Origin: Thermoplasmata archaeon
GTDB lineage: Archaea > Thermoplasmatota > Thermoplasmata > Thermoplasmatales > Thermoplasmataceae
DNA: 64,000 nucleotides
NCBI GenBank assembly: GCA_021797555.1
Contig: JAJZZM010000004.1
Location: 1 to 64,000, forward strand
Direction of reading: 5' to 3'
Part shown: positions 49,528 through 58,694 of the stretch, one piece after another
How the letters are laid out: each line of letters starts with the position of its first letter
Numbering within the stretch: position 1 is the first letter of the stretch
Made by a program: the position numbers and the translations under genes
The notes under the pieces: generated by a model
Databases searched by the model: none
The model's input: only the letters and a program-made list of their open reading frames with translations
What the model was told of the DNA's origin: nothing

Positions 49528-50808
49528 ATGGAAAAAATAGGAATAATTGGTGCAGGCATAACAGGTTTGTTCTCTGCATTAAATTTATCTTTAGATAATT
49601 ATGATGTTACATTATTTGAAAGGAATAATTTATTATCCGGTACATCTGGAAGATTCCACGGAATGCTTCACAGCGGGTCCAGATATTCATTAACTGATGA
49701 AAATTCTGCAAGGGAATGCATAAATGAGAATAAATTATTAAACAAAAATGCAGGTAATTTTATTAAAAATACTTCGGGTTATTTTGTTTCTTTAAATGAT
49801 GACGACTCATCATACGGTGATAAATTATTTAAAAAAAATAAAAATATTGGGATAGAAACAGAAAATATCAATGTAAATGAACTATTAAAAATTGAACCAT
49901 ACTTGAATAAGGATATAAAAATGGCATTGAAGGTTCCGGATAAAATAATATATGCACATCCTTTTGCATCCGCAGTAGCAATGGAGGCAATATTAAATGG
50001 TGCAAAAATTAGATTCAATTCTGAAATAACTGGAAGTGAAATCAAGAATAATAATGTAATTTCAGTAAAATATAAAAAGGGTAATAATATAATATCTGAG
50101 AAATTTGATTATATAATAAATACAACGGGTCCATGGTCAGGCAAATTATTAAAAAATTTTAATATAAAAAATTTTGATGTTATGCCTACCCTGGGTTATA
50201 TGGCTTCATATGATAGATTATTTATAAACTCTATAATAAACCGGATGAGGGATCCATCAGATGGTGATATATTACTGCCATATGGATCAAAATCCGTTGC
50301 GGGAACAATAGCAATTATTTCGGAAGACCCCGATAATAATGAACTCGATGACGAAGATATAGATACAATGATTTCAGAAATAGCTGAAATGGTGCCTTCA
50401 ATCAAAGATTATAAATATAAAAAATTATATTATTCCATGAGGCCATTAATAAAAGAGGATAATTCAAGAAATTCCAGGGATTTTAATATATATAAAAATT
50501 ATGACAATATGATTACAATTATAGGTGGAAAATTTACAACTTCAAGATTAATGGGAAAATCGGTTTCGGAATATATATCAAAAATATTTGGAAATAAAAG
50601 CAGTGATACAAAAAATATAATATTTGATAATACATTTAATAAATTTATAAGCAAATATAAAAATAATATCGATACTTCATTTCTTGATTATATCAATTCA
50701 TATGATAATAGCATGGACTATGAGTATAAATTGCATATTGAGAGTGCATTCCTCCTAAATGAGGCAGTAAAGGTGAATAAATGGAATTCAATGGAAAATT
50801 CAGTGTGA
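49528..50808 (+). CDS. FAD-dependent oxidoreductase, GlpA/L2HGDH-like
   Basis: The 426-residue flavoprotein begins with the dinucleotide-binding fold GIIGAGITGLFSALNLS and the Glu of LFERNN that binds the ribose of FAD. SGTSGRFHGMLHSGSRY and the later IINTTGPWSG and MRPLI and GGKFTTSRLMG segments resemble the anaerobic glycerol-3-phosphate dehydrogenase GlpA. A 2-hydroxyacid dehydrogenase of the same family is an alternative. No [2Fe-2S] or CCG domain is attached. The gene overlaps the following CoxG-like gene by 28 bases, so both are made together. Confidence 0.8.
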   Translation: MEKIGIIGAGITGLFSALNLSLDNYDVTLFERNNLLSGTSGRFHGMLHSGSRYSLTDENSARECINENKLLNKNAGNFIKNTSGYFVSLNDDDSSYGDKLFKKNKNIGIETENINVNELLKIEPYLNKDIKMALKVPDKIIYAHPFASAVAMEAILNGAKIRFNSEITGSEIKNNNVISVKYKKGNNIISEKFDYIINTTGPWSGKLLKNFNIKNFDVMPTLGYMASYDRLFINSIINRMRDPSDGDILLPYGSKSVAGTIAIISEDPDNNELDDEDIDTMISEIAEMVPSIKDYKYKKLYYSMRPLIKEDNSRNSRDFNIYKNYDNMITIIGGKFTTSRLMGKSVSEYISKIFGNKSSDTKNIIFDNTFNKFISKYKNNIDTSFLDYINSYDNSMDYEYKLHIESAFLLNEAVKVNKWNSMENSV

Positions 50809-56228: not shown

Positions 56229-57122
56229 ATGGATAATGATACTGTAAATAGAATTTCAAAAATGAAAAAAATGATTTTTAATAATTTAATGGAAAGTTAT
56301 ACACCTTTCCCAATGGATAAAAAATATTATTCATCGTGGACGGATAAATTGCCAAAAAATAAGGATACAATAATATACACATCATATATGTATCAGATTT
56401 CCGTTGTATTGAAAAGGTATGAAAAATTATTTCCTAAAATCTCAAATATTAATATGCCAAAAAGGTTAATGAATATATCAAAATTTCTTATAAAACCTGA
56501 TGAAAAGGAATTAAAAAGGTCATTTTCAATAATAAATAATATAAGTAATTTATTAAATAAAAACAATATAGATTTTGGATATTTATACGATGAAGAGCCT
56601 TATTCTGGTGCAATCCTGCTGGAATCGGGCTTTTTAAGTGAATTTAAGGAATATGGAAATAAACTTTATGAATTCTTTAAAAACAAGAATATAAAAAAAA
56701 TAATAACAATAGACCCACATACAACAAATGCATTAAAAAGGCTAAAAAAATTAATAAATTTTGATATTGATGTAAAAAATTATATCGAGTTAATAAACTT
56801 TAATGGCAGTGGAGAATATGTAATACATGATTCATGCTTATATTCAAGGGCAATGGGTATGTACGATACAATAAGGAATAAAATAAATAACTCCGGAATA
56901 AAAATTGATGAGGATTATTTAACAACAAGCAGGGATATGGGAACGTGCTGCGGCGGTCCATTATCACTTGTTTCTGCAAATGATAGCGATGAAATTGCAA
57001 AATTAAGATCCGAACAGTTATTGAAAATTAATGAAAATGTTCTGGTTATGTGCCCATTATGTTATCAGAATCTATCGCCGTATGTTGATAATATAAAGGA
57101 TTTAGCCGAGGTGGTATCATGA
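56229..57122 (+). CDS. LutA/GlpC-like CCG-domain iron-sulfur protein
   Basis: The 297-residue protein resembles the CCG-domain subunit of lactate- or glycolate-oxidising complexes. The second CCG region is complete: IHDSCLYSRA, GTCCGGP (about residue 238) and MCPLCYQNL (about 275). The first region keeps the shape (EEPYSGAILLESGFL; TIDPHTTNALKR) but has lost its Cys residues. At most one cluster of this type can therefore form. The gene ends 4 bases inside the next one, so the two proteins are made together. Whether lactate is the substrate is inference from family. Confidence 0.75.
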   Translation: MDNDTVNRISKMKKMIFNNLMESYTPFPMDKKYYSSWTDKLPKNKDTIIYTSYMYQISVVLKRYEKLFPKISNINMPKRLMNISKFLIKPDEKELKRSFSIINNISNLLNKNNIDFGYLYDEEPYSGAILLESGFLSEFKEYGNKLYEFFKNKNIKKIITIDPHTTNALKRLKKLINFDIDVKNYIELINFNGSGEYVIHDSCLYSRAMGMYDTIRNKINNSGIKIDEDYLTTSRDMGTCCGGPLSLVSANDSDEIAKLRSEQLLKINENVLVMCPLCYQNLSPYVDNIKDLAEVVS

Positions 57123-58252
57123 ATTATGAATGGAATGTTTCGATAAATAAGGCAATATTAAATAATGCACCTAAAGTAAATAAAATTTTAGAAGAGAATC
57201 CATACATAAGGGAAACGGCAAAGGAATTAAGGAATAAAAAATTAGATGTTTTAGATAATATTGATTTTTATATAAATAAAACTGAAGAAAGCGTTAAAAA
57301 AACTGGAGGCAATTTCCATTTTGCAAAAGATTCAAATGAGGCAATGGAAATAGTAAAAAATATAATAAAGGATAAAAAAAATATTGTTTTATCAAAATCA
57401 AATGTATTATATGAAATAAAATTAAGGGATGAATTATCAAAATTGGGCAAGGATGTCTGGGAAACCGATTTGGGTGAATATTTAGTCCAGATAAATAATG
57501 ATATGCCATCCCATTTAATTGCACCGGCAATACATTTATCAAAGGAAAAGGTATCTGAATTATTAAATAAAAATCTTGATAAAACAATAAATGAAAACAC
57601 ATCTGTGGAGGATATGGTTAGGGCAGTAAGAAAGTTTTTAATGGAAAAATACTTAGGATCGGAAGTTGGAATAACAGGAGCAAATGCAATAGCATCAGAT
57701 ACAGGTTCAGTTTTATTAATAGAGAATGAAGGAAATATCAGAATTGATACCGTACTCCCGGAAATACATATAGCCATTACCGGAATAGATAAAATAGTCC
57801 CAACATTGAAGGACGCATTCAATGAAGTTATTGTTCAGGCATCGTATGCAGGCTTTTATCCACCTACATATATCAATGTTACGTCTGGTCCAAGTGCAAC
57901 CGGGGACATCGAATTAAAAAAGGTTTCACCTGCAACAGGACCCAAGGAATTCCATTTGATATTAATAGACAATGGAAGAAAAGAGGCAATAAATTCCGAT
58001 TTAAAGGAATCATTACTTTGCATAAGATGTGGAAGATGCTATTTTTCATGCCCTGCATACAAATATTATGGCAAAGATTTTGGAGATCCCCCCTATACTG
58101 GGCCCACGGGAATTATGTGGTCTGCAATAACAGCAAAAAAATATGACAAATCATTATTATGCATGCATTCCGGTGGCTGCAGGGAAGTATGCCCCATGGA
58201 TATAAACATACCCGAAGAAATAGAAAGAATAAAATTCATGGAATTAAAATAA
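57119..58252 (+). CDS. LutB-like LUD domain iron-sulfur protein
   Basis: The 377-residue protein has a LUD domain (residues about 60-290, with GSVLLIENEGN and TYINVTSGPSATGDIE) followed by two iron-sulfur motifs. The first, CIRCGRCYFSCPAY, is a complete 4Fe-4S motif. The second, CMHSGGCREVCPMDI, has Ser where the second Cys of the usual C-x2-C-x2-C-x3-C-P belongs. LutB normally works with LutA and LutC in L-lactate oxidation. Here the LutA-like gene is directly upstream and no separate lutC is present. The protein probably passes electrons in a membrane-linked dehydrogenase. Confidence 0.78.
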   Translation: MNYEWNVSINKAILNNAPKVNKILEENPYIRETAKELRNKKLDVLDNIDFYINKTEESVKKTGGNFHFAKDSNEAMEIVKNIIKDKKNIVLSKSNVLYEIKLRDELSKLGKDVWETDLGEYLVQINNDMPSHLIAPAIHLSKEKVSELLNKNLDKTINENTSVEDMVRAVRKFLMEKYLGSEVGITGANAIASDTGSVLLIENEGNIRIDTVLPEIHIAITGIDKIVPTLKDAFNEVIVQASYAGFYPPTYINVTSGPSATGDIELKKVSPATGPKEFHLILIDNGRKEAINSDLKESLLCIRCGRCYFSCPAYKYYGKDFGDPPYTGPTGIMWSAITAKKYDKSLLCMHSGGCREVCPMDINIPEEIERIKFMELK

Positions 58253-58292: not shown

Positions 58293-58694
58293 ATGGATAA
58301 CATGAATTCATTTGAGGAAAATGCAAATAAAAAATATAAAGGCTTAGAAGAAGATATGCCTGCTGGAAGCATTGAAATTTTATCACCAGAAATAATAGAT
58401 ATTATAATACATAATATAAAAATGAAAAAATCTGTTGATTATACTGCCAATAATGTAACATACAATGCAACTTTCAGTACATACACAAAACTTGATAAGG
58501 ATGGGATGGTTGGAGTGTATGAGGGTGCACCCGACAGTGATTTCCGTGAAATTAAATTAATAGTTACAGGTTTCCATAGAAAATGGGACACCGAGGTAAC
58601 GTTTTCACATGAACACATATCTGTAATGCCTGACCGTGAATTAAAGCATTTAATAAATTTTCAGAGGGCAATTTTAAAAACTGGCAAATTATAA
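58293..58694 (+). CDS. Hypothetical protein
   Basis: I do not recognise this 133-residue protein. It begins with a charged helix (MNSFEENANKKYKGLEED), then an acidic-to-basic segment with IEILSPEIIDIIIHNIK, a beta region with NNVTYNATFSTY, and an end rich in His/Arg (TGFHRKWDTEVTFSHEHI). No signal or membrane segment is seen. It lies between the LutB-like gene and the his operon and is 40 bases from the former, so it may be part of that transcript. Confidence 0.6.
   Translation: MDNMNSFEENANKKYKGLEEDMPAGSIEILSPEIIDIIIHNIKMKKSVDYTANNVTYNATFSTYTKLDKDGMVGVYEGAPDSDFREIKLIVTGFHRKWDTEVTFSHEHISVMPDRELKHLINFQRAILKTGKL

Follow-up and report, generated by a model that had tools for sequence, protein, structure and literature searches.

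The window, a stretch of 64,000 nucleotides from an acidophilic Thermoplasmata archaeon, carries two adjacent genes that resemble lutA and lutB; their products have fewer iron-sulfur ligands than the canonical motifs and no LutC is encoded beside them. This locus raises the question of whether the pair, here named lutA' and lutB', is a damaged lactate utilization set or an enzyme in its own right and, in the second case, on which substrate it acts. The two genes, coding for proteins of 297 aa (56229-57122) and 377 aa (57119-58252), have both intact frames and overlap by 4 bases. Their features are the following:

56229..57122, forward strand: lutA', CCG-domain iron-sulfur subunit (alpha) of the EtfD/GlcF type, 46% identical to STK_16540
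56379..56396, forward strand: TSYMYQ, site 1 of the lutA' N-half, with Tyr where Cys-type rows have TSCMYQ
56595..56609, forward strand: EPYSG of lutA', occupying the CCGxP place of CCG proteins; Tyr125 aligns with EtfD Cys538
56712..56723, forward strand: DPHT of lutA', aligning with EtfD CPHC (Cys581, His583, Cys584); contains His164
56835..57062, forward strand: intact noncubane [4Fe-4S] site of the lutA' C-half, Cys203, Cys240-Cys241, Cys275-x-x-Cys278
57119..58252, forward strand: lutB', LUD plus dicluster ferredoxin subunit (beta), 55% identical to STK_16550
57272..57967, forward strand: LUD domain of lutB' (Pfam), the sole LUD found in the genome
58019..58054, forward strand: first ferredoxin motif of lutB', CIRCGRCYFSCP, with 4 Cys
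58160..58195, forward strand: second motif of lutB', CMHSGGCREVCP, with Ser351 for Cys; spacing as in the aligned SDH iron-sulfur subunit motif

An earlier note, made from the sequence alone, had described the pair at 56229-58252 as having reduced cysteine sets, and its reading of the residues is confirmed. LutA' contains five Cys (203, 240, 241, 275, 278), all in the C-half and none in the N-half, so the first CCG motif has indeed lost its Cys; Pfam recognizes a single CCG domain, at residues 198-282, again in the C-half. In LutB', where Pfam finds a LUD domain and, after it, a dicluster ferredoxin, there are seven Cys (301, 304, 307, 311, 348, 354, 358), and the eighth slot of the ferredoxin-type motif is filled by Ser351 (CMHSGGC), the replacement already noticed. 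The pair has sites for one four-Cys cubane, one three-Cys cubane and one noncubane CCG cluster, in agreement with the proposed maximum of three clusters. Canonical Cys residues are not to be restored by a frameshift correction: no frameshift is present and close relatives carry identical residues; a frameshift or pseudogene in the window is thus rejected, the frames being intact and conserved in relatives.

The absence of LutC was also correctly seen: in the window genome, which is 99.56% complete, no LUD domain other than that of LutB' was found, which leaves no LutC. A second intact lutABC locus, which the earlier note had named as contrary evidence, was not found in the genome either, and a hidden LutC elsewhere is rejected on the ground of the single LUD domain. 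Among the 117 genomes of the order, 41 have a LUD match, distributed as 28 in the window's family (f1), 2 in f2, 10 in f3 and 1 in f6; no free-standing LUD frame of LutC size was seen in f1, save for pieces of LutB' in two genomes (G055 and G058). The two LUD-containing f2 genomes each encode a LUD frame of 186 or 189 aa, which in L070 lies beside lutB and a lactate permease gene. A wider scan covered 56 named loci of relatives, with at most 8 kb of DNA on either flank, and no open reading frame nearest to LutC was found in them; a LutB homologue is present in 36 of these loci, and many of the 56 come from genomes already represented in the f1 set. Five f3 archaea (L077, L079, L081, L082, L083) encode a LutB-like protein of 424-427 aa that keeps the eight motif Cys, next to a companion of 257-292 aa and a malic-enzyme-like gene (labelled by eye), and each of these genomes has a single LUD match; a fumarate-reductase-type flavoprotein end, also labelled by eye, is present in four of these five loci. 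The f3 set is perhaps another LutC-free LUD system.

Missing cysteines and a missing LutC could be the marks of a decaying lutAB remnant that is shedding its clusters, and the frame is actually broken in three loci of relatives: in L060 and, for LutB', in L058 and L059. The conservation of the pair makes this explanation practically untenable. When the order's 117 genomes were searched for LutA', 28 of them contained strong matches of 178 bits or more, 30 in all, and 29 loci from 27 f1 genomes were read, window included: LutB' directly follows LutA' in all of them, with the four-base overlap in 20, window included, and frames are intact in the window and in most relatives. Every complete second motif of the family has Ser in place of Cys: CxHSGGC is found in 26 of the 27 LutB' rows of the family alignment, the remaining row, L060, losing its frame upstream of the motif. 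L058 and L059, where LutB' is split, were excluded from this alignment, and both carry CxHSGGC (their contigs are those of L103 and L104); the two frames have differing break points in these two genomes of one genus (L058:6736-7892, L059:1099-2261) and are possibly assembly errors or early loss. The alignment with other archaea that had been proposed extends the same reduced motifs from the 29 loci to several archaeal orders. Among 36 LutB rows of wider origin, 26 have Ser at position 351, 3 have Ala and 7 have Cys; the five Sulfolobales rows are all Ser, and of two Thermoproteales rows L117 has Ser and L113 Ala. Cys351 is retained in E. coli, two f3 archaea, an f2 genome with a LutC, L118, L124 and L129. 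The interchange of Ser and Ala argues against Ser being an essential ligand.

The spacing of the second motif, C-x2-S-x2-C-x3-CP, is shared in a profile alignment with the SDH iron-sulfur subunit (CRTTFNCTEACP in chain B of 6lum), whose site we take to hold a [3Fe-4S] cluster. Second motifs with three Cys occur outside the archaea too: in two Deinococcus LutB proteins it is the first Cys that is gone (S-x-LCGACYDACP). In LutA', His164, Cys203, Cys240 and Cys241 are invariant in 49 of 49 rows and Cys275 and Cys278 are absent from a single row, while the TSxMYQ site has Cys in 14 of the 49 (TSCMYQ type), mostly from Thermoproteota, and Tyr in the window. The reduced ligand set, regarded at first as a peculiar or degenerate trait of this pair, is therefore common to the whole family and, as Ser, to the Sulfolobales rows. 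The pair is a conserved enzyme of a kind purified once before, not a damaged lutAB.

The label "LutA-like" was right only in part: LutA' is a CCG protein, closer to the EtfD/GlcF type than to E. coli LutA. A profile of 18 LutA' sequences (A1) scores 155.1 bits with the genome's own GlcF-like protein versus 16.6 with E. coli LutA (YkgE), and a wider profile that includes GlcF-like rows (A3) matches Mycobacterium EtfD at 6e-17. The AlphaFold model of LutA' (pLDDT 92.3) has EtfD as best structural match (Z 21.9, rmsd 3.1, 256 aligned residues), followed by LutA of 9a6l, itself an integrative model (Z 18.6, rmsd 2.5, 206 aligned), and HdrB (Z about 15.6). LutA' as a close relative of LutA is rejected on the score with YkgE and on the fold match.

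EtfD, described as an electron conduit, binds a noncubane cluster, D2, through Cys637, 672, 673, 709, 712 and His583, the latter leaving D2 fully coordinated and non-catalytic, and a linear [3Fe-4S] cluster, D1, through Cys503, 538, 581 and 584; FadF and DgcB are said to be without the D1 cysteines (PMC13083937). In our alignment, LutA' Cys203, 240, 241, 275 and 278 fall on EtfD Cys637, 672, 673, 709 and 712, and His164 on His583; D1 Cys538, 581 and 584 are matched by Tyr125, Asp162 and Thr165, and no D1 Cys is present in LutA'. TSYMYQ would be the counterpart of Cys503, which lies outside the alignment. LutA' thus very probably holds, to judge from these residues, one His-ligated noncubane cluster and, like FadF and DgcB, has no D1 cysteines; different from EtfD of Mycobacterium smegmatis, it has neither ferredoxin nor membrane domain, and the cubane clusters are placed in LutB'.

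The window genome also encodes a GlcD/GlcF-type pair (L063:6347-8951, G000:C10), in which the N-half of GlcF is degenerate in the same way (TGDMYQ, EEPYPG, DPHT). A whole-genome CCG search listed four places and missed the window's own CCG gene; weak members are lost in it and it does not give a count. LutA' homologues with the degenerate N-half are encoded in Desulfobacterota MAGs as well (L127, L128, L130-L134, L136-L141), with a 113-117 aa ferredoxin piece in 6 of the 13 loci. A quick tree of LutA', unrooted and without bootstrap, groups the rows of Thermoplasmata type together with a Thaumarchaeota MAG and separates them from the GlcD-associated archaeal and Desulfobacterota rows.

LutB' has the LutB fold. 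In LutABC/LldEFG of B. subtilis and E. coli (YkgEFG), LutB has the same LUD and dicluster ferredoxin arrangement, with a CCG partner encoded just upstream, and the LutB' model matches LutB of the integrative model 9a6l with Z 51.2; its score with TIGR00273 is 339.9 bits, the cut-off being 444.8. Differently from these systems, the window pair has no LutC, a three-Cys second motif and a LutA' with one CCG site instead of two cluster-binding CCG halves. In B. subtilis, an association of LutA with LutB is supported by cross-linking and one of LutB with LutC by co-fractionation (PMC10090944). The pair also falls outside LdhH (NF045670), a single-chain LUD-Fer4-CCG protein: LutB' scores 265 bits against a cut-off of 800 and LutA' 20.7. 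Haloarchaeal LudBC shares a LUD-Fer4 protein and, in Haloferax, has a link with rhamnose, its deletion impairing growth on this sugar (PMC8305020); no separate lutA is annotated alongside it in four plasmid stretches. Unlike the window pair, it keeps a LutC-type LUD protein, and its LudB, in which the CCG region is part of the same chain, carries the four-Cys motif CTGCxRC.

The closest characterized counterpart is the dye-linked L-lactate dehydrogenase of Sulfurisphaera tokodaii, stk_16540/16550, described in 2021 as an alpha3beta3 complex containing FMN and non-heme iron, which was purified through tagged STK_16540 and gave two bands only; it oxidises L-lactate with a Km of 0.199 mM and does not use D-lactate (PMC8704557). 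The main text of that paper contains none of the terms LUD, LutA, LutB, lactate utilization, DUF162 and LldF, and its beta subunit was assigned by gel mass only. The primers of its Table 2 decode to LutB' peptides. One primer was sought in 31 genomes of the Metallosphaera javensis family and matched one genome, and all 8 gene-specific primers match exactly, over their gene parts, within one 11-kb stretch (L161). STK_16540 (287 aa) is 46% identical to LutA' and STK_16550 (383 aa) 55% identical to LutB'. The two genes have the same 4-base overlap and their products carry TSCMYQ, EPYSG, DPHT and CTHSGNCKEVCP, with CTHSGNC in place; the window pair thus has homologous subunits, adjacent and in identical order, and the same EPYSG, DPHT and CxHSGxC motifs. 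Two differences are found: the N-half motif of STK_16540 keeps one Cys (TSCMYQ) where LutA' has Tyr, and STK_16550 has His (SPAHGPKEF) where LutB' has Thr273. LutC queries gave no match with the next two genes after the S. tokodaii pair, both of which look by eye like membrane or surface proteins. On this comparison, the window pair is likely to be an L-lactate (L-2-hydroxyacid) dehydrogenase of the LUD type that has two subunits and no LutC and is an orthologue of STK_16540/STK_16550.

A purified complex of two bands that is active on L-lactate (PMC8704557) also weighs against the idea that LutA'B' is a mere electron-transfer module serving another dehydrogenase, of which the adjacent GlcD/GlcF pair of Thermoplasma would be an example. 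The idea has some ground: GlcD-GlcF genes lie upstream of the pair in all five Thermoplasma loci, with one transporter gene between in L056, a GlcD-type FAD oxidase gene accompanies the LutA' homologue in 12 of the 13 Desulfobacterota loci, none of which has LutB in the DNA examined, and the related EtfD is itself a conduit. Across the 29 loci, GlcD is within the DNA examined around the pair in only six (L052-L056, L060), and the module is improbable.

Which hydroxyacid the enzyme uses is a separate matter. The earlier note had supposed that the substrate may not be lactate, in view of the neighbouring SDR and 133-aa protein. This suggestion is not supported, the orthologous S. tokodaii pair being a purified L-lactate dehydrogenase and some relatives lying in L-rhamnose clusters; moreover, homologues of the SDR are present in 4 and of the 133-aa protein in 3 of the 29 loci, window included, and a function tied to these rare neighbours is rejected. 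The 133-aa protein (58293-58694) has no match in Pfam or NCBIfam. About 5 kb upstream of the pair, the window also encodes a GlpA-like FAD oxidoreductase (49528-50808; 287 bits to TIGR03377, cut-off 552.8), adjoined by a CoxG-family gene.

The gene context of relatives fits lactate in part. The L-rhamnose mutarotase gene rhaM is present in 17 of the 117 genomes, 15 of which also have LUD; five of these 15, belonging to 4 of the 6 genera, have it no more than 3 kb from LutA', and the other 10, five of them from the window's genus, have it elsewhere or on a different contig. A binomial estimate for this proximity is about 6e-8 with genomes treated as independent, a value inflated by their relatedness. 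Genes for an SDR, a Zn-ADH and an FAA hydrolase share a cluster with the pair in L049-L051 and L101; in L101 the hydrolase is nearest, among NCBIfam families, to 2,4-didehydro-3-deoxy-L-rhamnonate hydrolase, with 183.1 bits against a cut-off of 500. An L-rhamnose route with that hydrolase can end in pyruvate and L-lactate (PMC11199699). A rhamnulokinase gene adjoins two Deinococcus lutABC sets.

In the window organism, the same type of enzyme could have as natural substrate another L-2-hydroxyacid, for example 2-hydroxybutyrate, in place of L-lactate. Indeed, the S. tokodaii complex is equally or more active on 2-hydroxybutyrate (116%) and 2-hydroxyhexanoate (130%) (PMC8704557), neither a lactate permease nor rhaM was found in the window genome, and no lactate context was seen in the window neighbourhood. 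In two Thermoproteota MAGs (L124:2383-7646, L129:320-5592), the pair directly follows genes for a methylmalonyl-CoA mutase, its family checked for L124, and a MeaB-like GTPase (by eye), a neighbourhood that lactate does not explain; there, the second motif of LutB' keeps four Cys. Against this stand the Km for L-lactate of the S. tokodaii enzyme and the rhamnose and GlcD/GlcF contexts of some relatives, which indicate lactate, so that another L-2-hydroxyacid is a possible but rather unlikely natural substrate. The genome also encodes an FMN_dh protein nearest to L-lactate dehydrogenase, with 258.8 bits, below the cut-off of 376 (L151:1354-2559, G000:C15), possibly a second lactate-oxidising enzyme.

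For the LUD-type L-lactate dehydrogenase preferred here, we infer L-lactate activity of the window enzyme from its orthologue, and the following sequence of events may be proposed. L-Lactate would be converted to pyruvate by LutB' at its LUD domain, and a flavin at that place, which in the S. tokodaii enzyme is FMN, would split the electron pair. Electrons would then pass over the [4Fe-4S] and the probable [3Fe-4S] cluster of LutB' to the noncubane [4Fe-4S] cluster of LutA', the cluster types and their order being deduced from the ligands. With His164 as extra ligand, the latter cluster would carry electrons rather than catalyse, and LutA' would finally deliver them to the quinone pool, the presumed natural acceptor.

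This scheme bears on the catalytic site of LUD systems in general. In 2013, the precise roles of LutA, LutB and LutC were called unclear, and the proposal was made that LutC contains the active site, with His201 of the Deinococcus protein (PMC3924224). By our reading of the sequences, His201 falls in the HGPR stretch of 2g40, which aligns with the GPK stretch of LutB'; the matching position is Thr273 in window LutB', and it is His in 12 of 36 rows, Sulfolobales included. With an enzyme that is active without LutC, catalysis would shift to LutB or to where LutA and LutB meet, and our analysis suggests that LutC is dispensable and catalysis is in LutB. Since a natural two-subunit enzyme without LutC oxidises L-lactate and contains FMN, it may tentatively be asked whether the LutB LUD domain is the FMN enzyme and catalytic site of all LutABC-type lactate dehydrogenases, with LutC as an accessory, although the odds are somewhat against so wide a generalization. 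A recognized flavin-binding domain is found in neither subunit, and no literature linking LUD or Lut with FMN was found in titles or abstract openings. The host species of the published work is FMN_dh-positive, a weak finding since all 14 controls are positive too, and a co-purified host flavoenzyme is a possible source of the published FMN or activity. If the FMN belongs to LutA'B', a LUD domain would be a flavin site.

Loss of CCG or ferredoxin cysteines in such proteins need not equal loss of function. The archaeal form has no LutC, yet in one case it was purified as an active, FMN-containing L-lactate dehydrogenase; this indicates LutB, or the contact between LutB and LutA, as the place of catalysis, and a stable archaeal enzyme of two subunits makes the question directly testable.
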